From Candidatus Zhuqueibacterota bacterium (GTDB lineage: Bacteria > Zhuqueibacterota > Zhuqueibacteria > Residuimicrobiales > Residuimicrobiaceae), in assembly GCA_963169875.1 (NCBI GenBank), contig CAUJEL010000164.1, positions 1-52,930 of the forward strand: a stretch of DNA of 52,930 bases, in the 5' to 3' direction. Below, one piece after another: positions 19,738-34,967 of this stretch (position 1 is its first letter; every line of letters starts with the position of its first letter). The notes under the pieces were generated by a model. That model saw only the letters and a list, made by a program, of their open reading frames with translations. It did no database searches and was not told the DNA's origin. The position numbers and the translations under genes are program-made.

Positions 19738-20679
19738 TCACCTGGATTGTGCCAGGACTTTTTTGAACCAGGCTATGGTTTGCGTCAATCCCTGTTCCAA
19801 AGCCACCTTCGGTTCCCAACCGAGCAGGGTGCGCGCCAGCGTGATATCCGGCTGCCGCACTTTGGGATCATCCACGGGTAACGGCCTGGTGACCAGTTCA
19901 CTTTTGCTGTCCGTCAGACGGATGATGGTCTCCGCCATCTCCTTGATGGTCATTTCATGGGGATTGCCAATATTGACCGGTTCATGATAATCGGACATCA
20001 TGAGCCGGTAAATCCCTTCAATCAGGTCATCGACGTAGCAGAAACTGCGCGTCTGTGATCCGTCGCCGAATATGGTGATGGGTTCGTTGCGCAAGGCCTG
20101 CGGCACAAAAGCGGGGATGGCGCGACCGTCATTGGGACGCATGCGCGGACCGTAGGTATTGAAGATGCGCACGATTTTCGTATTCACATTTTTATAGCGA
20201 TGATAGGCCATGGTGATGGCCTCGCCGAAGCGTTTGGCCTCATCATAGACGCCGCGCGGTCCGACCGGATTGACGTTGCCCCAATACTCCTCGGTCTGCG
20301 GATGAATCAAGGGATCGCCATAAACCTCCGAAGTGGACGCGAGCAAAAAACCGGCATTTTTAGCCATTGCCAATCCCAGGGCTTTATGCGTGCCGAGGGC
20401 GCCGACCTTGAGCGTCTGAATCGGCAGCTGCAAATAATCCAGTGGACTCGCTGGCGAGGCAAAGTGAAAAACATAATCGATGGGGCCGGCAAGATAGATA
20501 TATTCGGTCACATCCTGTTTGATGAATTTAAAGTCTTCGCATTGCAGGTGTTCAATGTTGGCGATGGTTCCGGTCAAAAGGTTGTCCATGGCGATGACCT
20601 GATGACCCTTTTTCAACAAAAACTCACACAGATGCGATCCGAGGAATCCCGCCCCTCCAGTGACCAGCGATCGTGGCAT
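19738..20679 (-). CDS. UDP-glucuronate decarboxylase (UDP-xylose synthase)
   Basis: A 313-residue extended SDR enzyme. [16 protein letters not shown] is the NAD-binding loop, [15 protein letters not shown] the active-site Thr/Ser-Glu strand, and [11 protein letters not shown] carries the catalytic Tyr-xxx-Lys. The insertion [17 protein letters not shown] and [11 protein letters not shown] are diagnostic for UXS among epimerase-like SDRs. The reaction is UDP-glucuronate to UDP-xylose plus CO2 with transient NAD reduction. GGGAGG precedes the ATG. It heads the glycan pair with the GT9 gene and follows apbE by 9 bp. Confidence 0.94.
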
Positions 20680-20688
20680 CCAACCTCC

Positions 20689-21744
20689 CTATTCATGCAG
20701 AATTTCAAAAACGGGTTCCAGTCCGGAACTGATTTTATGGATCAAATTACCGTTTTCTTCAAAAATAATCAAGCCCTCAATGGCGGGCGTAGATTCGATC
20801 AAGGCCATGCCCTTTTCAGGACCCAGCACAAAAACAGCGGTCGCCAGCCCATCGCACAGCGCCGCCGTCGCCCCCACAATGGTCACACTGCGGCACTGGC
20901 GCGCCGGATAGCCGGTGTGGGGATCGAGGATGTGATGGTAGCGCACGCCCTCCGCCATAAAAAACCGTTCATAATCCCCGGATGTGGCCACCGCGCCGTT
21001 ATCCAGGGGAAAACGGCCATAGAAACCATCGCTTTTCAGGGGATGGCGGACATAGACATTGCGTTGCCCGGCCGTGAAAGAAGACGAGAGGGCGCGTAAA
21101 TCGCCTCCGGCATCCACCTGGGCATCAGCCATGCCGCGGCGCTGCAGAAATTCAACGGCAGCATCCACAGCATAGCCCTTGGCGATGCCGCCAAGATCAA
21201 AACCGCCGAGCGGATCATGAATGTAAACTCGATCCGGGGCCAGCGTAAAAACGCGGCGTCCGACATGCTGCAACGCAGCCTGAATATCACCGGGATCCGG
21301 GACCGACATCTCTGTATGGCGCCCAAATCCCCACAACTCCGTCAAGGAAGCGATGGCAGCGGTAAAAGCGCCCGCGGAAAGGCTGTCGATGAACCAGGCT
21401 CGTTCCAGCAGGGCGGCCATATCAACAGACAACGCGGCGCCTCCCTGCCCGGCGCTGCGGTTGATCATCGCCAGTTCGCTCCCCGATTGATAGTTATCAG
21501 CCAACGCCTCAATTTGTTCCATTCGCTTCACGGCGGAATCGATGAGGGCAGCAGTCGTGCGATGGTGCGAATCCTGGGTGAACACCTTGATGGTTACCAC
21601 CGTGTCCATCAGGAAAACCGTTTTTTCAACCGGCGTTTTCGGCGAATGGCTGCACGACAGTGAAAAAACGAGGACGAGGGTCGCTACGACTTGGGGGGCA
21701 GGGGCAAAAGAAAAGAGTTGCTTAATTTTCTCGAGATATCGCAA
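20689..21744 (-). CDS. apbE: FAD:protein FMN transferase ApbE
   Basis: A 351-residue lipoprotein: a hydrophobic N-terminal segment ends in a lipobox LSCS near residue 30. The ApbE core shows FLMDTVVTIKVF, the FAD-binding GGIAKGYAVDAA, the VDAGGDLRAL strand and a C-terminal HHILDPHTGYPAR with the Mg-binding region ATAALCDGLATAVFVLG. ApbE attaches FMN covalently to a Thr in periplasmic flavoproteins such as RnfG/NqrC. No Rnf or Nqr gene is in the window. The start is TTG at 21744 and overlaps the end of the polyprenyl synthase gene by 23 bp, implying coupling. Confidence 0.92.
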   Translation of the reverse strand: MRYLEKIKQLFSFAPAPQVVATLVLVFSLSCSHSPKTPVEKTVFLMDTVVTIKVFTQDSHHRTTAALIDSAVKRMEQIEALADNYQSGSELAMINRSAGQGGAALSVDMAALLERAWFIDSLSAGAFTAAIASLTELWGFGRHTEMSVPDPGDIQAALQHVGRRVFTLAPDRVYIHDPLGGFDLGGIAKGYAVDAAVEFLQRRGMADAQVDAGGDLRALSSSFTAGQRNVYVRHPLKSDGFYGRFPLDNGAVATSGDYERFFMAEGVRYHHILDPHTGYPARQCRSVTIVGATAALCDGLATAVFVLGPEKGMALIESTPAIEGLIIFEENGNLIHKISSGLEPVFEILHE

Positions 21745-22696
21745 AGTGGACCAGCGTTATTAAGCTCGCTTGTGCTTGGGATTCGGGATAGGAATGGAGA
21801 ATGGCAAAAGCCTGATCCGCATAGGAGCGGGCCACTTTTTCCGCGTACGCTAACCCACCCATTTCCTGTACATGCTGGACGATATTTCTGATGTTATCTT
21901 CGCTGGTCTCATCCTGCTCCAACACCCGGATGATCTCATTGCGTTTATCTTCGTCCGAATGCGCCAGCGTATAGATGAGCGGCAGCGTCACTTTATTTTC
22001 ACGTATATCATTTCCAACCGGTTTGCCGAGGAGGTTGACATCGCCGGCGTAATCCAGCAGATCGTCCTTGATTTGAAAAGCAATGCCCAGGCACTCCCCG
22101 AATTTTTTCATTTGCTCGCGATGTTCGGCGGAGGCATCGGCCGCCAAAGCGCCCAGCTCACAGCAGGCGCTGAACAGAGCCGCGGTTTTCTTGGCCACCA
22201 GATCATAGTAGACCGGTTCCTCGATGCGATAATCCCGGGCATGTTCGACCTGCAGCAGTTCGCCTTCGGTGATGCGGTTGGCCGTCTCCGAAAGAATACT
22301 CAGCGCCTCTTGACTTTTCAAATTCAGAACCGCCGTCAATGTGCGCGAAAACAACAGGTCGCCCACCAGGATCGAGATGCGATTATCCCACACAGAGTTG
22401 ACAGTGGGATGGCCGCGTCGAAGTGCTGAATTATCCACGACATCATCGTGTACCAGGGTCGCGGTATGCAGCAGCTCAACGACAATGGCTGCATCCATGG
22501 ATTTCTCATTAAGCACACCATGCAGCTGACCGGTGAGGAATACCAAAGCCGGGCGCAGGCGTTTGCCTTTGAGCTTGGAGATGTACTGAACAACTTTGTC
22601 AGCAAGAGGAACTTGCGAGCGAAGCATGTCCGCGAAAGACCCTTCGAATTCCTGCAGCTGTGTCTTGACCGATGGTGTGATGGCGTCTATGATCAC
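21722..22696 (-). CDS. Long-chain all-trans polyprenyl diphosphate synthase
   Basis: A 324-residue prenyltransferase with both aspartate-rich motifs: first DDVVD in LVHDDVVDNSALRRGHPTVN (~residues 80-84), second DDLLD in IKDDLLDYAGD (~208-212), plus GKPVGNDIRENKVTLPLIY. Length and motifs match IspB/HepT-type enzymes that make the isoprenoid tail of menaquinone or ubiquinone from FPP and IPP. The residue pattern before the first motif does not let me fix chain length. It uses a GTG start with AGGA six bases upstream. First gene of the run that continues to 14839. Confidence 0.93.
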   Translation of the reverse strand: MIIDAITPSVKTQLQEFEGSFADMLRSQVPLADKVVQYISKLKGKRLRPALVFLTGQLHGVLNEKSMDAAIVVELLHTATLVHDDVVDNSALRRGHPTVNSVWDNRISILVGDLLFSRTLTAVLNLKSQEALSILSETANRITEGELLQVEHARDYRIEEPVYYDLVAKKTAALFSACCELGALAADASAEHREQMKKFGECLGIAFQIKDDLLDYAGDVNLLGKPVGNDIRENKVTLPLIYTLAHSDEDKRNEIIRVLEQDETSEDNIRNIVQHVQEMGGLAYAEKVARSYADQAFAILHSYPESQAQASLITLVHFAISREN

Positions 22697-22795
22697 TGAT
22701 TATCCTGTGAAACTCCGGGTCATCTACTTGTTATGAGTAATCTACGGCGCTTAATTTAAGCAATATCGCGCTAACAGTCAACAGCGAAGTCGTTT

Positions 22796-24649
22796 TTACA
22801 TAGGCACATCGTTATCTTTTGCAACCGGCAGGCGCACACTGAAAGTCGTACCAGCGCCTTCGCGGCTCTTGACCAGAATGTCGCCGCCTTCCCGCTTGAT
22901 GATGGTATAAGAGAGATAGAGTCCGAGTCCGGTACCGCCCGTCTCCCGTTTGGTGGAGAAAAAGGGCGTAAAAATATGACTGAGATTTTCCTCGGATATG
23001 CCCAAGCCGGTATCGGTGAAATCGATGGTCACCCACTGCCCGTCCTTGCTCATGGAAGTTTTGATGCGCAAGAATCCGCCATTGGGCATGGCCTGCACCG
23101 CGTTATAGATGATATTCAACAAAACCTGTTTGAGTGAGTCGAGGCTGAAAAAGACACGCGACACGTTGGTGTAATTCCGTTCCGCGACAATATTACGCAC
23201 CGCGATCTCTTTATCCAGAAGCGACAAGGTGGTGTCGACCAGTTTTTCCACATCCACCCGTTCCTTCTCGTAGACCGAGTGCCGTGAAAACTGCAAAAGA
23301 TTTTCAATGATGGCCGATGCGCGGCGGACGTTCTTTTTGATGATGTCCAGTTTGCGGTCGAATTCTTCATTTTTATGGGCCAGACCATCTTCAATGGAAT
23401 AGCGAGCCGTTTCAATCACATTCAACGGATTGCGCAGCTCATGCGCAATGCCGGACGACAGCAGTCCGATGGTGGCGAGTTTTTCCGATTTGATGAGCTG
23501 CTTTTCGATCTCTTTTTGATCGGTGACGTCCTTGGCATACTCGACGAGGAACTCCGGCCGGCCATCGATGCCCGCCATGGGGAACGTCCAAAGATGAAAC
23601 GTCCGGCCCTGATGAAAAATTTCGATGAAGCGGGATTCCCCGGTGCGATAGGTTTCGAAGGCCGGGCAGTTGGGGCACGGATCGCTGCGATTGAACAAAG
23701 CCTTGAAACATTTCTGCCCCACCAGTCCGGTCGTGTGCGCGGCCGTGATCTGCGTATACTTTTTATTGCCCATGATGAGGTTGTGATCGCGGTCCTGCAC
23801 CGAGATGGGGTCGGTGATGCCGTCAAAAAGCGAAATCAAACGCTGCCGGCTGAGCAGCAACTGCCGCTGCATCTTGACTTTTTCACTGATATCGCGCGCA
23901 AAACACTGGATCACCTGAATGTCACCAACCGACACCAGACTGCCATTGAGGTCCACCGGTATGAGGCGGTGATTTGATCCCGCCAGCACCGCCTGGTCCA
24001 TGCTCGCCTGGCCTTCGTTTTTTATCCGGGTGAGAAAACTCTGGATTTCCTGCAAAGAACGATTGGCACTGATCTGCAGAAAATTTTTCTGCAACAGTTC
24101 ATCAGCCGGACACCCGATCATCCGCACCGCCTGCCCGTTGGCCTGCAACAACCGAAAAGAGGCGGCGTCCGCGATAAAAATGGCGATGCTCGCCTTTTCA
24201 AACAGGGCAAAATAGCGCTCTTCGCTCTGCTGCAACCGCGACGACAGACTCTGCTCCTCGATGGCGCGCATCACCACCCGCGGCAACAGATCGAGGAAAT
24301 CCTTGGTCTTGACCAGATAATCATAGACGCCCTGACGCATGGCCTCCACAGCAATGCGCTCATCCCCCTGACCAGTCACCATGATCACCGGCACCGTCGC
24401 AGGCATCTGTTGTATCTTCGCCAAAACTTCCAGGCCGGACATTTTCGGCAGGCTGTAATCCAGCACCACCGCATCAAATGCAGTCGCCCCCAATTTTTCC
24501 AGCCCCTCCTCGGGATCATGGCAAATGTGGGCTTGAAACGGCTGATTATGACGCTGCAGGATCAATTCCATCAGATGCGCTTGTTCCTGATGATCCTCGA
24601 TGATGAGAATCTGGTATTTCTGCGGTTGCCTGGTCTGCACGGTGCTCAT
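22796..24649 (-). CDS. Sensor histidine kinase with N-terminal receiver and two PAS domains
   Basis: A 617-residue cytoplasmic protein with no transmembrane segment. Domains in order: receiver (~12-130, phospho-Asp in VVLDYSLP near residue 63), PAS (~145-260), a second PAS-like domain (~275-385) containing C-x-x-x-L...CPNCP, a cysteine pattern that could bind a metal or sense redox, HisKA (~395-460; H-box GIAHELRNPLNV, His ~403) and HATPase (~500-612; N-box NIIYNAVQ, DTGLGI, GTGLGLYLS). All catalytic boxes are intact. Its ATG lies in a 4-bp overlap with the upstream kinase gene, so the two kinases are made together. With an N-terminal receiver it may act as a relay target of its partner. No DNA-binding output is nearby. 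Confidence 0.93.
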   Translation of the reverse strand: MSTVQTRQPQKYQILIIEDHQEQAHLMELILQRHNQPFQAHICHDPEEGLEKLGATAFDAVVLDYSLPKMSGLEVLAKIQQMPATVPVIMVTGQGDERIAVEAMRQGVYDYLVKTKDFLDLLPRVVMRAIEEQSLSSRLQQSEERYFALFEKASIAIFIADAASFRLLQANGQAVRMIGCPADELLQKNFLQISANRSLQEIQSFLTRIKNEGQASMDQAVLAGSNHRLIPVDLNGSLVSVGDIQVIQCFARDISEKVKMQRQLLLSRQRLISLFDGITDPISVQDRDHNLIMGNKKYTQITAAHTTGLVGQKCFKALFNRSDPCPNCPAFETYRTGESRFIEIFHQGRTFHLWTFPMAGIDGRPEFLVEYAKDVTDQKEIEKQLIKSEKLATIGLLSSGIAHELRNPLNVIETARYSIEDGLAHKNEEFDRKLDIIKKNVRRASAIIENLLQFSRHSVYEKERVDVEKLVDTTLSLLDKEIAVRNIVAERNYTNVSRVFFSLDSLKQVLLNIIYNAVQAMPNGGFLRIKTSMSKDGQWVTIDFTDTGLGISEENLSHIFTPFFSTKRETGGTGLGLYLSYTIIKREGGDILVKSREGAGTTFSVRLPVAKDNDVPM

Positions 24650-26205
24650 TCCTCGATTAAGGCCTCCTGCCTGGTCAGGACACGAGGCAGTGTGAATTTG
24701 ATGGTGGCGCCTTCGCCCGGACTGGATTCCGCCCAGATGCGCCCATGATGCCGCTCGATGATGCGCTTGACGATCGTCAATCCAACGCCGGTGCTCTTGT
24801 TCTCCTGATCTTCATCGCGCGTGTAGAAAAGTTCAAAGATATGCCCGAGATCAGATGCGGCTATGCCGCTGCCATTATCCGTGATATAGAACTCGTACTC
24901 ACCATTCTGCAGATTGCAGCCAATCTCTATGCTGGGAATGTCCGCAAAGCGCGTAAATTTCAGCGCATTGGAAATAAGATTGGTGAAAACCTGGGTCATC
25001 TGCGTCACATTGCAGGTAATGCGCGGCAGGGTTGAATCGATGATCATATTGACCGGCCGCTGTTCAATCAATCCGGACAGAGACTCAAGGGCATTTCTGA
25101 GGATTTCGGTGGATTCCACTTCCTCGAAAAAAGTTTCGCTGTGCGTCAATCGCGACAAATCGAGAAGGTCCGTGACCAGATGCTCCATTTGCTCCAGATT
25201 GACAAACATCCGCTCCAGATAGGTGCTGGCCTGCGCCGGCAGATGGTAACCGTACTCTTCCCGCAATAGGGTGGCAAACCCCTTGAGACTTTGCAGAGGC
25301 GCCTTGATGTCATGGGATAACGTGTGTATCACGGTTTCCGCGCCGGTTTGACTGAAGAGCGGCGATTGTTCCTGCCAATCGCTGATGAATATGATCAAGC
25401 GGCGCTCGGGCACTTGTGTGGTCAACCATGAACTGAACACGGTTGCAGCCAACCGCTGCCCATCTGCCGCAGCCAACTCCACGGAAACAGGCTGGGGCGG
25501 CCAGATTTCCTGGTCTATTCGCGCTTCGGTCATGCACAAGGACGAAAATTCATGCGTGAAGACCGTCTGCCGGTCATAACCACTCCATTCGAGAAAGGCG
25601 CGGTTGACTTCTTCGATGCGATCGGTTTGCGCGTCTGTGACAACGGCTGGATAGGGCACAGCCTCCAGAATGGAGAGATATTTTTCGCGAAACGTGGACA
25701 GGATATCGTGGGTTTGCTGTGCACGCCGTTCCCAGTGGATGCGTTCCATGGGATTGGCCAGCAGAAAGGAACAAAACTCGGCGCGACGGATTTCATCCGC
25801 CGTGAAGACTTTGGGGACCATGCGTGCGAAATAGATACATCCCAGCACCTCTTCCGGCGCCTGAACAGGGACAAACAGCTCCTCTTCTGCGTTTTCCAGC
25901 AGTGCATCGGGACTCCCCTGGCGCACCACCGTCTGGCGGCTCAACAAAAGATCCTTGATCAGGGCGTGGTCATAGGGGATGACAATCTCTTCCTGGGTCG
26001 GCGAAGGCATGATATTGTGCGTGAAAGAGGCGGACAGACATTCGCGCAGTTTGTCATTGAAAAAGATCAGATAATGGTCATAAGGAATCATATCAAACAC
26101 CAGCGCCCGCGACTGACGGAAAATCTCGGCGGGATCGGAAATGCACGAGGCATGGGCCGCAAGCGCATAAAAGCGATCAATATGTTCCTGGCCAAACTGC
26201 GACAT
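24646..26205 (-). CDS. GAF-PAS sensor histidine kinase
   Basis: A 519-residue soluble kinase. Residues ~1-170 look like a GAF domain (YFARMVPKVFTADEIRRAEF near its end). PAS is at ~176-285 (AVVTDAQTDRIEEVNRAFLEWSGY). HisKA follows with TLSHDIKAPLQSLKGF (phosphoacceptor His ~298), then HATPase ~385-505 (NLISNALKFT, DNGSGIAASDL, STGVGLTIVKRI). Complete and probably active. It lies 18 bp after nrnA and overlaps the receiver-PAS kinase gene by 4 bp. As a soluble sensor, its input is presumably cytoplasmic. Specific signal unknown. Confidence 0.93.
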   Translation of the reverse strand: MSQFGQEHIDRFYALAAHASCISDPAEIFRQSRALVFDMIPYDHYLIFFNDKLRECLSASFTHNIMPSPTQEEIVIPYDHALIKDLLLSRQTVVRQGSPDALLENAEEELFVPVQAPEEVLGCIYFARMVPKVFTADEIRRAEFCSFLLANPMERIHWERRAQQTHDILSTFREKYLSILEAVPYPAVVTDAQTDRIEEVNRAFLEWSGYDRQTVFTHEFSSLCMTEARIDQEIWPPQPVSVELAAADGQRLAATVFSSWLTTQVPERRLIIFISDWQEQSPLFSQTGAETVIHTLSHDIKAPLQSLKGFATLLREEYGYHLPAQASTYLERMFVNLEQMEHLVTDLLDLSRLTHSETFFEEVESTEILRNALESLSGLIEQRPVNMIIDSTLPRITCNVTQMTQVFTNLISNALKFTRFADIPSIEIGCNLQNGEYEFYITDNGSGIAASDLGHIFELFYTRDEDQENKSTGVGLTIVKRIIERHHGRIWAESSPGEGATIKFTLPRVLTRQEALIEE

Positions 26206-26223
26206 AGATCAGGTTATCACCCG

Positions 26224-27213
26224 TCAACTGAATAATTTTTTGGCCTCTCGGACCACCATCTCCACAGTCTCTTGCAGCCCTGTGGCCAATGTGGCGCCTG
26301 AGGCGTATTTATGTCCGCCACCGCCAAAAAGGCTTGCCATGCCGTTGATGGCGACGCGGCCCTTGGAGCGGAAACTCACTTTGGTATGACCATCGGCCGT
26401 TTCCGTGAACATCAGGCTCACTTCCACACGCGCGATATGCCGGGGCAATTCAGAAAAGCCTTCCGTCTCCCACAACTCTGCGCCTGTCTCGCGCAGCATC
26501 TGTTGTGAAAGGGAGAAATAAGCAAGACGGTCTTCGCACTCGAAATGCATCTCTTGCAGCAGCCGCGCCATCAACAGGGTGCGCTGTTTTGAATTTTTTT
26601 CATACACTTCTTCATAAATCGCCCGGTAATGGGCGCCGCGATTGAGCAAATCCGCGGCGATCACATGGGTTTTGGCGGTGGTGTTGCTGAAACGGAACGA
26701 GCCGGTATCCGTCAGGATGCCCGCATAAACCGCATCCACCATCGCCGGCGTCCAGTCCGCTTTTGAGTCCATGAGAAAATCATAAACCATCTCGCCGGTG
26801 GAGGATGCTTCCTGAACGCAGACGTGCACCTCGCCCATATCATCGGTTGGTATATGATGATCAATGCAGGCAACGGGCAGCTGATGGCGCTGAATCACCC
26901 GGCCGATACCGGCCAGCCGTTTCCAGTCACTGATGTCAACCACGATACACCCATCGACCGTCGCGATCTGCGCATCATGCATTTCGGGATCGTAGATGGC
27001 GATCTCTTCGCCTGCATCCAGAAACTGGAAATACGGCGGCGTCGGATCACAATTGATGAGCAGTACCTTTTTGCCCATCTGCCGCAAATAATGCGCAATG
27101 GCCATTTGACTGCCAATGGCATCTCCATCGGGATGCACATGGGTGGTGACGAGAAAACGTGTCCGGCCGCTGATAAAATCCCGGATAGCCTGCCAATTGC
27201 CATCGTAAATCAT
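26224..27213 (-). CDS. nrnA: Bifunctional nanoRNase / PAP phosphatase NrnA (DHH-DHHA1)
   Basis: A 329-residue DHH-superfamily phosphoesterase. THVHPDGDAIGS (~20-31) and VDISD supply metal ligands, CIDHHIP is the DHH motif, and the C-terminal DHHA1 domain contains FRSKGRVAINGMASLFGGGGHKYASGA with the substrate-binding GGGGH. NrnA degrades 2-5-mer RNAs and 3'-phosphoadenosine 5'-phosphate in the cytoplasm; in c-di-nucleotide pathways it also clears pGpG or pApA. The start ATG shares one base with the stop of the propeller protein gene (TGATG), so coupling is strong. Its placement between envelope proteins and two kinases is unusual. Confidence 0.95.
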   Translation of the reverse strand: MIYDGNWQAIRDFISGRTRFLVTTHVHPDGDAIGSQMAIAHYLRQMGKKVLLINCDPTPPYFQFLDAGEEIAIYDPEMHDAQIATVDGCIVVDISDWKRLAGIGRVIQRHQLPVACIDHHIPTDDMGEVHVCVQEASSTGEMVYDFLMDSKADWTPAMVDAVYAGILTDTGSFRFSNTTAKTHVIAADLLNRGAHYRAIYEEVYEKNSKQRTLLMARLLQEMHFECEDRLAYFSLSQQMLRETGAELWETEGFSELPRHIARVEVSLMFTETADGHTKVSFRSKGRVAINGMASLFGGGGHKYASGATLATGLQETVEMVVREAKKLFS

Positions 27214-29354
27214 CAGAATCCTTTTTCGGTCGAGTGGTGTACGCTGTAATTGCCGTTTCGATCTGTCGTTTTTATGGAAATATCCATCTCTTCCGCGATG
27301 GCTTGCAAAGGAATTGCGAATTTTTCACAGGGTGAGTCTGCCAGTCCGTCCACCGGATAGACAGGCAGCCATCCGCCTGAATTGATGCTGATCCACGTCT
27401 CCTGCAAGGGCGTCAGCGCATCACAGATGGTGAAAATCAAATGCCCTTTGCTTTCAACCCGTTGGATGGCGACCTCTTTGATGTCCGGTCCCGAATTGTC
27501 AATGGTGAACATCGAGCTGAGCTTCTCGGTGGATAACCCCATGCCCAGGGGCAGCAGCAGGCTGTCGCTGGCCACGATCTTTAGTTGATACGCGCCATCC
27601 GCCATTTGCGAAGTATCCCATGAAAAGACCCGCTGGGCAATCTCTTTTCCAAGCTGGCGCCAATGCTTCTGCTTCTCGCCGCGATAATAAACCGAAAACC
27701 ACAATGCATCCTGATTCGCATCGACAAAATCCCAGGAGACGCTGCGGAATCCCAACTTTTTTTCCGGTTTGGGCAAGCTGCCCGCCTCTGTGATCCCTGA
27801 TGCGGCCGTCATGGATCCTTCATCCACATCAAACGCAATGCCCTGCGGCAGGATTTGCATCTCCAGGATTTCCGGCGCACGATTTTTCTGAATAAAGGAA
27901 ACAGAGACTTCGCGCACCTCAGGCGGCTGATTCCCTGCTTTCAGTTCACATCGCCACTGCAGAAACCGGGCGGCGGGAGAGTGAATCCGCCCTACACCCA
28001 TCTGCTCTGTGACCGGCTGCCAGGAACTCCAGGTGGCCTCCGGTTTTTGTGTATTACCGGAGCGGGTGGAAAAAGACACGCTGCCCCGGCCTTTATAACT
28101 CAGCGTTCCCCAGGTCGACAGGGCTTCCGCATCCAAAGGCTCGGATTCATAGTAGCCTGTTTTGGCGGCAGCGCCGAACAGATTGCAGCGCCCCATGTTG
28201 GAGGTCGCCACCGCAAGCTGCCCCGCGGCGGTGGCCGCAATTGCGGAAATGTGTGAAGCCTCCATGCGCAGGACCAGCGTGAGTTCCCCTGCCGGACCGA
28301 TCTGATATAACACTCCCTTGTCACCGGACCCGGCGAACAGGTTTCCATTTGCATCCGAGAAAAGCGTCTGTACAGCCCCGTTTTCCGCCTGCCAGATATT
28401 GCGCGCATATCCATCCGTGTCGATGCGCAAAAGCTGAGACTGTGAGGTTTCCGTGGACACCGATTCAGACACCATGGCGCCCCGAGGCGCTTCGGACGAC
28501 TCCTCTCCGTCAAGCGACTCGATTTCTGCAGCACCCTCCTGCTGCGCTGTCAAAATCTGCATCAAGGCACCGGCCGGACTCGCGGCGGCCAAAGCAGCGG
28601 CATAGAGCCATCCATCAGGCCCCTTGGCCAGGCTGTGCACTTCCTCCGCGCCGGCATCCACCAGAACAAAAGGCGGAACGTTTTTCCTGAGGCTGTAAAT
28701 CAATCCGGGACGGCTGGTGCCGGCGTAAACCGCCTCCGGCGTTATCAACAAGGAGCGGATATGTTCCGCTTCGCTGGATAATTCGATACGGGTGCTGCCA
28801 TCCGGCTTGATGCGCACTAATTGGGCTTTTGCGCCCGTCGCAACCCAGAGATCACCCTGGGCATCAAAGGCCATGGCCCAGATATACATCTGTCCGGTAG
28901 TGGTAAAAATCCGTGATTTCCCCGATGCTTCCATCTGAAAGATCGACCCATTGGGCGAGGTGGCCATATAGACGCGATCTTGCCGGTCTATGGCCAGTGC
29001 GAACACCTGCGCTTCATCGGCATCGAAGAACAGGGTGCTGTCGCCCTGCGGATTGACGCGGTAGACTTTGCCGTCATTGCCAGTGCCAAGATAGAGATTG
29101 CCGCGGCTGTCAGCGGCGGCGCACCAGATGTACTGATCGCCCGTCTCGAGCGTACGCACGACTTCAGGCGCCAGAATCAAATGGCCATCGTGGGTCAGAG
29201 ACAGGTTCACAAGCTTGCCGCGACTATAATCATCAAAAGAAGCGTAAACCTGCAAAACCGTCCCCCCGCCCTGAAGCGGCCGCGGCACAGCAGCCAGCCA
29301 CAGGAGTGCACAACTACATGCTATTTTAAGCCAACGTGTTTTCATATTCACCAT
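27213..29354 (-). CDS. Exported beta-propeller protein of unknown function
   Basis: A 713-residue protein with a signal peptide (MKTRWLKIACSCALLWLAAVP). Residues ~60-400 contain repeated propeller blades of the form A-x-D-x-x-G-x-L/V-Y-x-A/G-T (AAADSRGNLYLGTGNDGKVYR, AIDRQDRVYMATSPNGSIFQ, AFDAQGDLWVATG), as in NHL or two-component-regulator propellers. The C-terminal ~250 residues are Ig-like beta segments. No enzyme motif is visible. The start could be ATG 29354, which overlaps the S55 peptidase stop, or ATG 29345, which gives a cleaner signal peptide. It is tightly flanked by the S55 peptidase and nrnA genes. Confidence 0.85.
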   Translation of the reverse strand: MVNMKTRWLKIACSCALLWLAAVPRPLQGGGTVLQVYASFDDYSRGKLVNLSLTHDGHLILAPEVVRTLETGDQYIWCAAADSRGNLYLGTGNDGKVYRVNPQGDSTLFFDADEAQVFALAIDRQDRVYMATSPNGSIFQMEASGKSRIFTTTGQMYIWAMAFDAQGDLWVATGAKAQLVRIKPDGSTRIELSSEAEHIRSLLITPEAVYAGTSRPGLIYSLRKNVPPFVLVDAGAEEVHSLAKGPDGWLYAAALAAASPAGALMQILTAQQEGAAEIESLDGEESSEAPRGAMVSESVSTETSQSQLLRIDTDGYARNIWQAENGAVQTLFSDANGNLFAGSGDKGVLYQIGPAGELTLVLRMEASHISAIAATAAGQLAVATSNMGRCNLFGAAAKTGYYESEPLDAEALSTWGTLSYKGRGSVSFSTRSGNTQKPEATWSSWQPVTEQMGVGRIHSPAARFLQWRCELKAGNQPPEVREVSVSFIQKNRAPEILEMQILPQGIAFDVDEGSMTAASGITEAGSLPKPEKKLGFRSVSWDFVDANQDALWFSVYYRGEKQKHWRQLGKEIAQRVFSWDTSQMADGAYQLKIVASDSLLLPLGMGLSTEKLSSMFTIDNSGPDIKEVAIQRVESKGHLIFTICDALTPLQETWISINSGGWLPVYPVDGLADSPCEKFAIPLQAIAEEMDISIKTTDRNGNYSVHHSTEKGF

Positions 29355-31249
29355 TCGAAAGTAGGCGTGATGGACAGGCTGTTATCCGGCGTGCGCTTTT
29401 GTTTGCGCGGCTGTTCGATTTTCACGGTGATCCGCTTCAAACCGGCGACCTCGCAGGGTGTTTCGATCGACCATTCGCGCAAAATCCGGTCGTGCAAAGA
29501 ACGTTCACTGCCTTTGCCGCTCATGACCCCCAGGATGGAGGGCGGCAGAGACGGCATGGCCTCCCCCTTCACCGCAATACCCGGGGCGCTCTCACGAATC
29601 TGCACATAAAGATGATTGGCCCGGCGGCGGCCGCTGAGAATACGGCAAAGCTGCGAAAATGATCTGGGCCGGTACTTGTCCGGGTTGGATTGCACATCCA
29701 GTAACGTGAGAGCCGCAGCACCACCGGCCACGACGATCAGGTTTCGGGCCTGAAGGTATTGCGGCAGACGGATGGACTGACTGAATTTCATCTCCTCGCC
29801 ATCACTCTGACGCAAGACAAACACCAGCCGCAGTGAATCTCCAGGTTCGACTTTCACGTGATCCTGACGAATATCCTGAATGCGCGTCAGGCGCTCTCCC
29901 GGCTCAATCTCTGCGCGCACGGTTAACGAGGTGATCGCCGGTGTCACAAAATCATTGACCATGATGGCGCCCGTACTGATCGCCACCACATCGGCGGCCT
30001 CGGCGAGTTCGGAACCCGCCCCCATGAAACCGAGCCGTTCTTCATAGGAGATAAAATCCTGCAGATGCAGCGAATCGCCACCCGCGAAATGGATATCATA
30101 ACGCAAGCGGATGGTGGAAGGATCCGCCCCCATCTTGCTGCTGACCAGCGTTTGAAAAACGGCCGAGCGTAAAAAAAACGGCATGAGATTGGCAAACGCG
30201 GGATCGGAGGCCATGTTCAGGTGGAATCTCTTCTCCCCCGCCGGAAGTTGCACAAAAATATCCACGGGAATCCATTGCGGCATAGTTCCGAGTTCGCCAT
30301 AGAGGCCTGATAATCGATCCTGGCGGAACGTGCCGACAATTTCCACGGATTTACCGAGTTTGTTGGATCCCATCAAACTCGGGATGGTCGCCAGGATGTG
30401 CGTGCGCGCCATCGGCATCTGCGTCGGTCCGATGTTGAAAATGGGGTGCCCGAATGCCAAAACCCGGTCCCGGTCCACCGCGGTCACGGTGCCCGTCATC
30501 TCCATGCCGAGATCGCCGCTGATGAAGACCTGGGACACGGCATCGCCGGGTTGCAGCGCTCCTGTCGGGACCGAAGCAGCGTCCAGCGTGCTGCCGCCGG
30601 CGACCGGAACAAGACCAGTGCCCGTCAGACAAGGCTGAAGCGCAGAAATAACCTGACTGGAAAATCCTGAAAGCAGCAGCGGGGAATCGATGTGCTTCAC
30701 GGAAAAAGAATTCTGCGGGGGCGGGGTTCGCGCTGCCAGCACGCGCTGCCATAAGGAATCGGTGCTGCTCATCAGGATGGCATTGAGATACACCGCGCCC
30801 ATGCGAACCGGCGCGACGCTCTTTTCCGGTCGATCGGACTCAAAGTCCCGTGTGCGGATCATGGCCTCGATGGGCATGACGCCGGCAATCGGTTCTTTCT
30901 GAAAATCGCCAAAACGCAGGGCCAGGGCGCCTGCGAGTTTGCCATTCAGGTAGACCGGGCTGCCGCTCATGCCGCTGACAACCCCATTGCGCTCGGCCTG
31001 CTCACCGCTGAGGCGGACGATAAAAATATCCTGTTGCGGATAGAATCCCCGGACCACATCCACGACTTCAACGCCAAAAGACTCGACCGTCTCCGCAGCA
31101 AACACGGTTTTGGCAAACCCCTTCATGCCGGGTTTTACATCCTGAATGGGCAGATAGTCGAGCTGCCACGGTTCCGCGCCGCAAGCGGGCGCGGTTGCCA
31201 CCAGTGTGATGATGAGGAACAGTAGATAACGCCCGGCGGGTTTTATCAT
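29348..31249 (-). CDS. SpoIVB/S55-family serine peptidase, exported
   Basis: A 633-residue protein with a signal peptide ending near ACGAE (~25). Residues ~30-300 match the S55 fold: PGMKGFAKTVF, then GVVSGMSGSPVYLNGKLAGAL with the catalytic-serine signature around residues 94-98, and GHPIFNIGPTQMPMA further on. In Bacillus, SpoIVB cleaves a membrane-protease partner to trigger sigmaK; non-sporulating FCB bacteria carry S55 proteins of unknown use. The C-terminal half is beta-rich and unassigned. It opens a five-gene run (S55, propeller, NrnA, two kinases) with overlaps of 7, 1 and 4 bp and one 18-bp gap. Confidence 0.9.
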   Translation of the reverse strand: MIKPAGRYLLFLIITLVATAPACGAEPWQLDYLPIQDVKPGMKGFAKTVFAAETVESFGVEVVDVVRGFYPQQDIFIVRLSGEQAERNGVVSGMSGSPVYLNGKLAGALALRFGDFQKEPIAGVMPIEAMIRTRDFESDRPEKSVAPVRMGAVYLNAILMSSTDSLWQRVLAARTPPPQNSFSVKHIDSPLLLSGFSSQVISALQPCLTGTGLVPVAGGSTLDAASVPTGALQPGDAVSQVFISGDLGMEMTGTVTAVDRDRVLAFGHPIFNIGPTQMPMARTHILATIPSLMGSNKLGKSVEIVGTFRQDRLSGLYGELGTMPQWIPVDIFVQLPAGEKRFHLNMASDPAFANLMPFFLRSAVFQTLVSSKMGADPSTIRLRYDIHFAGGDSLHLQDFISYEERLGFMGAGSELAEAADVVAISTGAIMVNDFVTPAITSLTVRAEIEPGERLTRIQDIRQDHVKVEPGDSLRLVFVLRQSDGEEMKFSQSIRLPQYLQARNLIVVAGGAAALTLLDVQSNPDKYRPRSFSQLCRILSGRRRANHLYVQIRESAPGIAVKGEAMPSLPPSILGVMSGKGSERSLHDRILREWSIETPCEVAGLKRITVKIEQPRKQKRTPDNSLSITPTFEW

Positions 31250-31300
31250 AACCGGCCGGATTTGTTGAGTATACTACGGATTGGCATGCATCACTCGATT

Positions 31301-31990
31301 CTAAAAGGTAAACGCCTCTCCCACCGACATCACCTTGACGCGATGGCCTATGGCTTCGGCTTTGGTTTTAAAGGAATGCGGATCCGCCGCTATGACGTCG
31401 AAGGTGTTATAATGCATGGGAACGGTCCACTGCGGTTTGATGAACTCGCAGGCTTTCACGGCATCATCCACACCCATGGTGAAGTTGTCGCCTATGGGCA
31501 GTAACGCCACCGTGATGGGGTTCATCTCACCGATGAGTTGCATATCCAAAAACAGGCCGGTGTCGCCGGCATGGTAGACTGTTTTTTCGCCCAGGGTGAC
31601 GAGAAATCCGCAGGGATTGCCCATGTACGCCAGGGTATCGCCGCCGAGATCAGCCCCGGATCCGTGATGGGCGATGGTCAATTTCACCCGTCCGAAGGGG
31701 AAGTGGAAAGCGCCGCCGATGTGCATGCCATGGGTTTTGGCGCCGCGTTTACCGCACGCCGTGGCCAATTCATAAGGTGCAATGATGGTGGCGTCGTTGG
31801 CTTTGGCGATCTGCAGGCCATCGCCAAAATGATCACCGTGCCCGTGTGTCAACAGCACATAATCGACTTTGACCTGTTCCGGTTTGAGCGTAGCGGCGGG
31901 ATTTCCTTTTAAGAAGGGATCAAAAATCAGCCGCACCTGCTCGTCTTCGAGCAGAAAAGCGTCATGACCTAAAAACGTCAATGTGGGCAT
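31301..31990 (-). CDS. UPF0173-type metal-dependent hydrolase (metallo-beta-lactamase fold)
   Basis: A 229-residue MBL-fold protein. Zinc ligands: HxHxDH in LLTHGHGDHFGD (~48-59), a His in IAHHGSG, the bridging Asp in YHAGDTG and a final His in PMHYNTF. The short length, the absence of an extra effector domain and the FLGHDAFLLE start match the UPF0173 group. Cytoplasmic, substrate unknown. It follows the SDR gene by 24 bp, so it may be the last gene of the pterin-related run. Confidence 0.92.
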   Translation of the reverse strand: MPTLTFLGHDAFLLEDEQVRLIFDPFLKGNPAATLKPEQVKVDYVLLTHGHGDHFGDGLQIAKANDATIIAPYELATACGKRGAKTHGMHIGGAFHFPFGRVKLTIAHHGSGADLGGDTLAYMGNPCGFLVTLGEKTVYHAGDTGLFLDMQLIGEMNPITVALLPIGDNFTMGVDDAVKACEFIKPQWTVPMHYNTFDVIAADPHSFKTKAEAIGHRVKVMSVGEAFTF

Positions 31991-32014
31991 GGGACCTCCT
32001 CGCAGCAGCAGCGC

Positions 32015-32734
32015 TTAAACGTCTCCCCCTTTGGGCCGTATCACCAGGTCTTCCACCGTGGCCCCGGCGTTGGTCTGCAAAATAGTGATCACACTTTCAG
32101 CGATTTCTTCGGGTTTAATCATTTTGTCATGATCCACCTGCGCATCCGCCCACAGCAGCGTATCCGTGGCACCGGGCATGAGCGCGGTGACGCGAATGCC
32201 ATGCTCGCGTGTTTCCATGCGCAAGACTTCCGTGAAACCGAGAAGACCGTACTTGGAGGCGCAATAGGCGGCGCATTTCAGATAGGGTGTTTTCCCCGCG
32301 ACGGAGACAACATTGATGATGTGCCCCGATTTGCGTTCAATCATGCTGGGCAGCACAGCCTGCGCGCACAGGAAAGCACCTTTCAGATTGGTGTCCATCA
32401 TGGCATCCCAATCCACGGCGCTGATGTCCGTGACTTTATCAAAAACCGCCACCCCGGCGTTGTTGATCAGAATATCGATCTCACCATAGGTCCGCTGCAC
32501 AGCGACCACCAGCCGGTTCACCTGATCAGCCTGGCGAACGTCGCAAGGCATGGCCATGGCTTGTTTTCCGTGCTCGTTGATCTCCGTTGCCACGGCTTCA
32601 ATTTCAGCCACCGTGCGCGCGGAAAGCACCACACGCGCTCCATGTTGGGCGAGAATTCTTGCCATGGCGCGGCCAATACCGCGTCCCGAACCCGTGACCC
32701 AGGCTATTTTTCCATTCAAATCCAACGGCGCCAT
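32015..32734 (-). CDS. SDR oxidoreductase (FabG/sepiapterin-reductase-like)
   Basis: A 239-residue classical short-chain dehydrogenase. NAD(P)-binding TGSGRGIGRAMA (~14-25), NNAG (~90-93), catalytic Ser in VVSVAGK, and YCASK carrying Tyr and Lys. The C-terminus VEDLVIRPKGG is common in FabG-like enzymes. It sits 1 bp from folE and two genes from a PTPS of the tetrahydrobiopterin type. By context it may reduce 6-pyruvoyltetrahydropterin like a sepiapterin reductase; by sequence alone an acyl or other keto substrate is equally possible. Confidence 0.9.
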   Translation of the reverse strand: MAPLDLNGKIAWVTGSGRGIGRAMARILAQHGARVVLSARTVAEIEAVATEINEHGKQAMAMPCDVRQADQVNRLVVAVQRTYGEIDILINNAGVAVFDKVTDISAVDWDAMMDTNLKGAFLCAQAVLPSMIERKSGHIINVVSVAGKTPYLKCAAYCASKYGLLGFTEVLRMETREHGIRVTALMPGATDTLLWADAQVDHDKMIKPEEIAESVITILQTNAGATVEDLVIRPKGGDV

Positions 32735-32735
32735 A

Positions 32736-33296
32736 CTACTCCCACGATTTGATGAGATTCAAAAATTCCATACGCGTTGCCCGGTCATTTTTAAACTCCC
32801 CCAACATCGCGCTGGATGTGACGAAACTGTTCTGCTTTTCCACGCCGCGCATCATCATGCACAGATGTTTGCCTTCCAGAACCACGGCAACGCCGTAGGG
32901 ATTCAACGTTTCCTGCAAGGTCACGGCGATCTGATTGGTCAGACGTTCCTGAACCTGCAAGCGGCGGGCATACATGTCCACGATGCGCGGTATTTTGCTC
33001 AATCCGATAATCTTGCCTTTGGGAAGATAAGCCACATGGGCCCGGCCAAAAAAGGGCAACATGTGGTGTTCGCACAGACTGTAAAATTCAATATTGCGTA
33101 CCAACACCATCTCTTCGCACGCTTCGGTGAAGATGGCGTCATTGAGAATTTCGCGAATGTCCTGATGATACCCGCGCGTCAGAAAATGATAAGCGGACTC
33201 GACGCGTCTGGGCGTCTGCACAAGTCCCTCCCGTTGCGGATCTTCACCCAGGTTCTGCAGCAACTCTGTGATCAAGGGCTGAATTGATTTTTTCAT
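32736..33296 (-). CDS. folE: GTP cyclohydrolase I
   Basis: A 186-residue type I cyclohydrolase. Zinc ligands are C75 and H78 in the LCEHHMLPF motif and C146 in [45 protein letters not shown] is the conserved subunit-interface block, all intact. It converts GTP to 7,8-dihydroneopterin triphosphate, the first step to folate, queuosine or tetrahydrobiopterin. AAGGA precedes the ATG. It lies 33 bp after the PTPS gene. Confidence 0.96.
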
Positions 33297-33329
33297 ACAG
33301 GATTCCTTTCAAAAACCAGACACGCAGCC

Positions 33330-33743
33330 TCATTCGCCCCGATAGACAGCCATATTTCGCGGCGTCTCGTAGAGCTTGAGTTCGTACAAGCGACACGAGG
33401 TGAATTGATCCTTGAGCAGATGCCAGAAAGCGACCACGATGTTCTCCGCAGTTGGAACAACACCCTGGAGGCATTCAACTTCGTAATTCAAAAATCTGTG
33501 ATCCACGCGATCAATGACTTCCCGCTGCACGATATCCTTTAGTTCCTTCAAATCGATCACCATGCCCGTCACCGGATCAGGTTCTCCCGCCACTGTCACT
33601 TCCAATTCATAATTGTGGCCGTGTCCCAACGGATTATTGCAGGCGCCATACAGGGCGGCATTGGTTTCAGCATCGATGGATTCATTGTGCAGACGATGCG
33701 CAGCGCTAAAGTGCAGATGACGTGTGACATAAACAAGAGGCAT
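33330..33743 (-). CDS. 6-pyruvoyltetrahydropterin synthase (PTPS-II type, QueD/COG0720 family)
   Basis: A 137-residue T-fold enzyme. Zinc ligands H16 (HFSAAHRL), H41 and H43 (GHGHNY). The catalytic Cys35 is followed by five residues before HGH (CNNPLGHGH), the spacing of mammalian-type PTPS; queuosine-pathway QueD usually has Cys-xxx-HGH. DPVTGMVIDLKELK and DHRFLN also look PTPS-like. With FolE and an SDR beside it this suggests tetrahydrobiopterin-like cofactor synthesis, though QueD activity cannot be excluded, particularly as QueG is encoded 3.4 kb away. AGGAGG nine bases upstream of the ATG supports the start. First gene of the run. Confidence 0.9.
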   Translation of the reverse strand: MPLVYVTRHLHFSAAHRLHNESIDAETNAALYGACNNPLGHGHNYELEVTVAGEPDPVTGMVIDLKELKDIVQREVIDRVDHRFLNYEVECLQGVVPTAENIVVAFWHLLKDQFTSCRLYELKLYETPRNMAVYRGE

Positions 33744-33857
33744 ATGGACTCCCCTCCTGGTCCCCTGTTGCGGGCACGCGAAAATAATTTAGGTTTTTGC
33801 GGGACAGACACCAAGGATAATATTACAAAATCTCTCCCAATGAAGCAAATTGTATTT

Positions 33858-34967
33858 TCAGCGACAAACGGCGCCGAGAACGCGCATAAAATTGCCCCAG
33901 CAAATGGCCTCGACCTCGTCCCGGCTGTAATCCCGCTCGAACAGGCCTTCCCGGATCTCGCCAAAGACAGAGCAGTCGCGCACGCCCTCAGGAAGGATCG
34001 GTATGCCGTCGAAATCAGAACCAAAGGCGATATACTCGGCGCCGATCAGTTCGCTGAGGTAGAGAATATGGTCGTAATAGCGTTCCAATGGAATTGAACG
34101 TCCTTGCAATGCTGCCTGGAATTTCGCGCTGAAATCCGGAAAAAGCCGCCCGATTTTCGCTAAATCCATACCCGCGGATCTCTCGAGTTTTCCCAATTCA
34201 GTGAACAGATCCCCGGCTTTTTCAAAGACCAGACGGTTAAACGCGGCGTCCAGAAAAGCCGGATAGATGTTCAGTCCGATCAGGCCATCAGCTGCGGCGA
34301 TGCCGGCAATCAGCTCGTCCGGCAGGTTACGCGCCGTGTGGCATAGTGCCCTGGCGCATGAATGGGAGGCGATGACCGGTTTTTTGCTGGTGTGCAAGAC
34401 CGCCTCGACCGTGCGATCGTGACTGTGCGAAATATCGATGATCATGCCGAGGTCATTCATCGCCTGGATGACATCCCGCCCGAAGGCGGTCAACCCGGCA
34501 AAGGCTGGCGCGCTGTCGTTGGAGCTGATGACCCACTCGTTGCTCTCCGCATGCACAATGGTCATCAGGCGCACACCCATGTTGTACAATGCTTCGAGTT
34601 TGGTCAGGTCGGCTTCGATGGCATTGCCATTCTCAACGGCCAGAATAGCGGCGATCCTGCCCTGGCCACGGCATTCGAGGACCTCCTTGTGGTTGAGACA
34701 TAGCTTAATGTCTTGTTCATGGCGCGCCAGTTCATCTTTAAAACGCGCGATAAAATCGCTGATCATCGCAAAGGCTTTGCCTTTGGGTATGGCGGGCGGA
34801 AGATAGCAGGCGAACACCTGCAGAGCGATGCCCGCTTTTTTCATCGCCGGCAGATTCACCTGGAGGTGGGCATCCTCCAGGGAGTCGCCCATCAACAGAT
34901 TGGTGGCGGTGTCGCAATGGAGATCGCAAATGGGTATGATAGAGTCCTGAGTCATTTTATTATCCAT
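33858..34967 (-). CDS. Membrane-dipeptidase-like peptidase M19
   Basis: A 369-residue amidohydrolase-fold protein. HxD in ICDLHCDTATN, a bridging Glu region in AAILAVENGNAIEAD, then DISHSHDRT and IASHSCARAL with the metal histidines: the M19 (renal dipeptidase) set. No signal peptide is visible, so it is probably cytoplasmic. M19 enzymes hydrolyse dipeptides, including those with D-amino acids. The start may be ATG 34967 or the ATG four codons later; neither has a strong ribosome site. It stands alone, 114 bp upstream of the PTPS gene. Confidence 0.92.
   Translation of the reverse strand: MDNKMTQDSIIPICDLHCDTATNLLMGDSLEDAHLQVNLPAMKKAGIALQVFACYLPPAIPKGKAFAMISDFIARFKDELARHEQDIKLCLNHKEVLECRGQGRIAAILAVENGNAIEADLTKLEALYNMGVRLMTIVHAESNEWVISSNDSAPAFAGLTAFGRDVIQAMNDLGMIIDISHSHDRTVEAVLHTSKKPVIASHSCARALCHTARNLPDELIAGIAAADGLIGLNIYPAFLDAAFNRLVFEKAGDLFTELGKLERSAGMDLAKIGRLFPDFSAKFQAALQGRSIPLERYYDHILYLSELIGAEYIAFGSDFDGIPILPEGVRDCSVFGEIREGLFERDYSRDEVEAICWGNFMRVLGAVCR

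Follow-up and report, generated by a model that had tools for sequence, protein, structure and literature searches.

SpoIVB of Bacillus (MEROPS family S55, Pfam PF05580, PDB 9lnf) is an exported serine peptidase whose crystal structure places Asp363 about 24 Å from His236 and shows no Asp near that His, Thr393 having been suggested instead (PMC12502668). The triad of S1-family peptidases follows the order His-Asp-Ser (PMC3434108), as does that of the HtrA/DegP/DegQ proteases (PA clan, S1C; PMC6524800), which carry PDZ domains and have no propeller partner. A propeller does accompany a serine peptidase in S9 prolyl oligopeptidase/DPP, where the catalytic domain is an alpha/beta-hydrolase and the propeller belongs to the same chain, and propellers with Reg_prop-type repeats occur in hybrid two-component sensors (e.g. 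4a2l). Here we analyse a 52,930-nucleotide stretch of DNA (the window; contig CAUJEL010000164.1) from a 5.0-Mb metagenome-assembled genome (MAG) of KSB1, a phylum proposed as Zhuqueibacterota (PMC11683472), whose nearest named relatives are KSB1 bacteria. Its minus strand carries two overlapping genes for an S55-like peptidase and a propeller protein, and we conclude that the former is probably a circularly permuted SpoIVB/S55-type PA-clan serine peptidase with the triad Ser95-His268-Asp311 and an obligate exported propeller partner.

29348..31249, minus strand: S55-like serine peptidase, exported, 633 amino acids (aa), partial Peptidase_S55 match
27213..29354, minus strand: propeller partner protein, exported, 713 aa, Reg_prop/SGL propeller

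Order of the peptidase halves

The peptidase can be divided into the following parts.

N-terminal: signal sequence
aa ~34-140: Ser half, with GMSGSP and Ser95
aa 141-236: linker domain
aa ~237-345: His half, with GH268 and QD311R
aa ~439-611: C-terminal macroglobulin/Ig-like part

The protein exceeds the gathering cut-off of Pfam PF05580 (31.8 bits against 25) over model positions 126-191 of 210 only; the match, at aa 47-110 around GMSGSP, is to the C-terminal part of the model, and the same holds across relatives. Over SpoIVB 328-403 this Ser segment is 34% identical in 74 columns. The GT-x-T...GH hallmark, equivalent to SpoIVB 219-240, is found at aa 253-268, downstream of the Ser, whereas in SpoIVB it lies upstream. 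His268 thus follows Ser95 where SpoIVB has His236 and then Ser378, and the overall order Ser-His-Asp departs from the His-Asp-Ser of the S1 family. TIGR02860, the true SpoIVB equivalog, scores 28.7 bits against a cut-off of 305, no PDZ domain was matched in Pfam or NCBIfam scans of the peptidase, and its gene neighbourhoods displayed no sporulation context. The initial annotation of an exported SpoIVB-family serine peptidase therefore stands as far as the likeness to SpoIVB goes, but the protein has no PDZ match and its halves are in the opposite order. Because the residue order, the PDZ scan and the equivalog score all part from SpoIVB, we file the protein as a permuted S55 relative within the PA clan and not as a SpoIVB orthologue. 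It differs from SpoIVB further in its large C-terminal macroglobulin-like part, in the lack of conservation at the Asp363 and Thr393 positions, in its occurrence in diderm lineages and in having a propeller partner.

The order of the halves was examined by profile-profile comparison (hhalign) of the family profile (A3) with four SpoIVB sequences; the SpoIVB reference sequence was verified against PDB 9lnf over residues 101-426, and His236, Asp363 and Ser378 fall at the right numbers. The Ser half (aa ~47-124) aligns to SpoIVB 328-403 with P 1.8e-12. The His half (aa 248-320) falls on SpoIVB 214-299 with P 5e-4, His268 being paired with His236, while three other segments of the peptidase, from its middle and C-terminal parts, gave P 0.3 or worse. 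When the His half was placed before the Ser half in silico, a single continuous alignment to SpoIVB resulted (score 102.4, P 1.7e-14), whereas the natural order and the control segments scored 83-86. Relative to the Ser half by itself, the permuted profile raises the score by ~17-20 units and control segments raise it by ~3. As judged from these alignments, the halves of the peptidase are in swapped order relative to SpoIVB.

A second, divergent paralogue of ~660-800 aa, frequently bearing a dockerin-like EF-hand stretch at its N-terminus, is present in the Gemmatimonadetes-labelled phylum (L204-L208). Its sequence around the Ser (SDPVLIQLGGIARGMSGSP) seems nearer to that of SpoIVB. The same permuted order of Ser, His and Asp recurs in the paralogue (GMSGSP...FGH...EDR), whose Ser segment matches SpoIVB with P 1.3e-8.

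Several results count against a permutation. When the His half was searched against B. subtilis SpoIVB by HMMER, the score was 0.4 bits, which is not significant, and profile-profile comparison was used for this reason; the His-half match thus depends on that method and on only four SpoIVB sequences. In the paralogue the best His-half match is SpoIVB 215-241, in the right register and with P 0.019. Putting the paralogue's halves in reverse order brought no score gain against SpoIVB. The HMMER result and the partial coverage of the Pfam S55 model would suit a false match, in which the S55 likeness is limited to the Ser half and the part containing the His is unrelated. We consider this improbable, as the top profile match of the His half is the SpoIVB His segment, in register, in two families, the gain of the permuted profile exceeds that of the controls severalfold, and the His and Asp are invariant.

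Among the SpoIVB relatives, three came from plasmid-labelled records, and a search for relatives in viral contigs returned none. Two plasmid-labelled records (L181 and L182; Monoglobus and Sedimentibacter) carry spoIVB together with spo0A and may be mislabelled pieces of chromosome.

Predicted fold and candidate triad

The AlphaFold model of the peptidase, built from 64 homologues, has a mean predicted local distance difference test score (pLDDT) of 89.9 and a predicted template modelling score (pTM) of 0.89. In this model the Ser half forms a six-strand barrel (43-49, 55-69, 73-81, 98-101, 104-113 and 121-126, then a helix) with Ser95 between strands 3 and 4. Residues 30-141 match the C-terminal barrel of HtrA proteases (DegQ, DegS, Deg2 and AlgW, Z 6-7.5; Foldseek probability 1.00) and SpoIVB 9lnf (Z 6.1, 24% identity); Z values up to 7.5 can reflect a common arrangement, and the match to SpoIVB is backed by sequence. 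The strands of the His half (237-245, 248-259, 262-265, 274-289, 296-311 and 316-320) were not isolated in the fold search; in the model His268 follows strand 3 and Asp311 ends strand 5. In chymotrypsin the N-terminal barrel likewise has its His after strand 3 and its Asp after strand 5. Residues 454-615, in the C-terminal part, are similar to complement/macroglobulin domains (Z ~6). The protein is predicted to be chymotrypsin-like and circularly permuted, with the Ser barrel first and the His-Asp barrel second, and its predicted triad is Ser95-His268-Asp311.

All three residues are invariant in 64/64 homologues, in which the SpoIVB Asp363 position is variable; all but one have Ala or Ser at the Thr393 position. 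In a gapless reading of G-x-x-x-x-D311-x-x-x-G against SpoIVB 285-297, Asn290 would stand opposite Asp311; the pairing was made by eye, and the alignment programs place a gap there, which speaks against it. An invariant Asp at the expected place bears on the question of the SpoIVB triad, in which no Asp lies near His236 (PMC12502668).

With catalysis resting on prediction, SpoIVB's own triad being unusual (PMC12502668) and large extra domains being present, the protein might alternatively be a non-catalytic descendant of the protease fold that serves in binding or as a scaffold. We regard this as very unlikely, since the three residues do not vary across several phyla and are retained in the divergent paralogue, which is unexpected in a dead enzyme. 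A permuted PA-clan protease would offer a rare natural test of how far the fold can be rewired. Our literature search found no report of a permuted chymotrypsin-like or S55 protease, nor of the propeller partner, which is no proof of absence. S55 genes have been reported as widespread in acidobacteria (PMC8841776), and proteins of the present kind match that family yet have neither the SpoIVB order nor a PDZ domain.

Distribution of the peptidase and its propeller partner

The propeller protein consists of a signal sequence, a closed 7-bladed beta-propeller (aa ~59-396) and beta-sandwich domains, so that the initial annotation of an exported propeller protein is borne out by both the signal sequence and the Reg_prop/SGL match. 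Its predicted structure (pLDDT 86.8) gives Z ~33 against several propellers for aa 59-396, and the beta-sandwich region contains an invariant R-x-G-N...W..W motif. In contrast to the hybrid sensors, there is a single closed propeller fused to beta-sandwiches, with no kinase or membrane segment, and, unlike in the S9 peptidases, it is a separate protein next to a peptidase of PA-type fold. Homologues of both proteins have hydrophobic signal-type N-termini in nearly all cases and almost never an internal membrane segment, and a lipobox-like motif was found in none of 64 peptidase and 48 propeller sequences, which rejects lipoprotein anchoring; both proteins should therefore be exported and either soluble or peripheral.

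Within KSB1, the peptidase is present as a single copy in 39/39 members of the window's class that are at least 90% complete and is absent from 19/19 genomes searched in the phylum's other classes, and full-length propeller matches occur solely in peptidase-bearing genomes. A single-protein query found no matches in named genomes and an alignment-based query succeeded. In all 20 named peptidase-bearing genomes the propeller protein is present, even where the two genes are not adjacent, and it is nearly always encoded by a single gene.

We drew 99 genomes evenly across the Acidobacteria-labelled phylum (that of G082) and found both genes in 93, neither in 6 and one without the other in none. 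The propeller gene lies directly downstream of 79 of the 96 peptidase copies, and the three genomes in which the peptidase gene is doubled (G133, G185 and G205) likewise have two propeller genes. For the Gemmatimonadetes-labelled phylum (that of G087), 44 genomes have both, 8 neither, 5 the peptidase only and 3 the propeller only, several of the 8 discordant genomes being small or having the gene at a contig end. Fisher P values for co-occurrence in the two samples are 8.9e-10 and 6e-5, uncorrected for phylogeny. The peptidase is also present in 16/16 genomes of a third phylum. In named genomes outside KSB1 only the peptidase and the propeller protein remain together: no constant further partners were found there, and the neighbours are unrelated genes (a ZIP transporter, the YchF GTPase, shikimate enzymes and an aminotransferase). 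The unit conserved across phyla is hence the exported S55-like peptidase and the exported propeller protein only.

Co-occurrence that is not corrected for shared ancestry is no proof of contact, and this must be set against a physical partnership. In the model that we favour, the peptidase would act in the periplasm or on the outer surface, and the propeller protein would bind the peptidase or its substrate and so set the activity or specificity of cleavage. The main rival is an enzyme-client relation, in which the propeller protein is the target of a maturation protease and not its regulator; strict co-occurrence and co-duplication suit an enzyme and its substrate as well as an enzyme and its regulator. 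No conserved cleavage linker was identified, and complex formation is more usual for a large folded partner that is obligate, making a client unlikely in our view. More tentatively, and with a little less than even confidence, we propose that the peptidases are a family of naturally permuted chymotrypsin-fold enzymes with a full triad, each forming with its propeller an obligate two-protein exported machine that the propeller gates or targets; such machines would be present in almost all Acidobacteriota and be common in several further diderm phyla. Since the exported pair is co-inherited and almost universal in major phyla of soil and sediment, it lends itself to genetics in cultured Acidobacteriota.

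Two observations concern the surroundings of the pair. In 24 named Acidobacteria-labelled loci (L117, L125, L127 and 21 more) a divergently transcribed, probably exported protein is encoded upstream of the peptidase gene; several of these proteins have a GGP...GP...PKKK motif near the N-terminus, and a Pfam scan of one member returned no match. A peptidase-propeller pair also occurs on a contig labelled Bifidobacterium breve (L135), which is almost certainly a mislabelled MAG.

The gene run in the window

Downstream of the pair in the window lie three further genes.

26224..27213, minus strand: NrnA-like DHH-DHHA1 phosphoesterase (Pfam DHH, DHHA1)
24646..26205, minus strand: GAF-PAS histidine kinase (Pfam GAF/PAS/HisKA/HATPase)
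22796..24649, minus strand: receiver-PAS-PAS histidine kinase (Pfam receiver/PAS/HisKA/HATPase)

The initial annotation treated these and the pair as a compact run of five linked genes. All five open reading frames are present on the minus strand at the positions given, with overlaps of 7, 1 and 4 bp and a single 18-bp gap, and Pfam matches agree with the domains proposed for each. The gene order recurs in other genomes: of the 35 class loci whose contig runs past the propeller gene (40 class loci examined), 34 have peptidase, propeller and nrnA side by side, the exception being L070, where the propeller gene is about 8 kb away. In one KSB1 genus (L070 in G044, and also G030) the propeller gene is about 7-8 kb from the peptidase gene.

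The nrnA gene follows the pair throughout the KSB1 class and in no named locus outside KSB1. Its product exceeds the Pfam cut-offs for DHH and DHHA1 and has invariant DHH, DxD and GGGH motifs; the NCBIfam NrnA equivalog is its top-scoring family with 137 bits, below the cut-off of 350. As the gene is the sole copy in the genome, which fits a housekeeping role, it is probably a housekeeping passenger. The GAF-PAS kinase has no evident signal or membrane segment. The full arrangement of GAF-PAS kinase and receiver-PAS kinase is confined to the window's family. Orthologues of the receiver-PAS-PAS kinase lie downstream in many, not all, class members, and elsewhere in the class the position after nrnA is taken by larger GAF kinases, lone receiver-kinases, phosphoglycerate mutase, M20, M14 or M23 peptidases or another Reg_prop gene. 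With the pair persisting alone in the named loci outside KSB1 and the kinase slot varying within the class, the five genes do not form a conserved unit; the peptidase and the propeller protein belong together, and the linkage of nrnA and the kinases into the same signalling system is not supported.

It had been proposed that a SpoIVB-like envelope cleavage and nucleotide turnover by NrnA feed a relay through the two soluble kinases. The tight spacing of the five genes, the class-wide peptidase-propeller-nrnA order and the presence of some kinase downstream in many class genomes would agree with such a relay. Outside KSB1, however, the pair survives with neither nrnA nor kinases, many class members have something other than a kinase in the next position, the same-strand run exceeds five genes, and the kinases show no periplasmic sensor domain able to take an envelope signal. 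We therefore find the relay highly improbable and set it aside as not supported, although it is not disproved. The nrnA and kinase genes look like local hangers-on, neighbours of the pair in a same-strand block conserved in KSB1, and we found no link between them and the peptidase.

Upstream of the peptidase gene, on the same strand, are genes for an MBL-fold metal-dependent hydrolase (51 bp away), an SDR and FolE-like, QueD-like and dipeptidase-like proteins, the last three assigned by inspection and synteny only; downstream of the receiver kinase are polyprenyl synthase (99 bp away), ApbE and epimerase genes. As the run continues on the same strand on both sides, the five-gene border is a choice and not a natural limit, and the compact run is upheld in its genes and spacing and not in its borders. 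Scans for promoters and terminators exceeded shuffled sequences only modestly and do not delimit transcripts. The gaps between the flanking same-strand genes are at most ~115 bp. Positions 19738-34967 of the window hold at least 13 collinear genes on one strand, from the dipeptidase-like gene to the epimerase gene; the five-gene run lies inside this block, and much of the block's gene order is conserved within KSB1.

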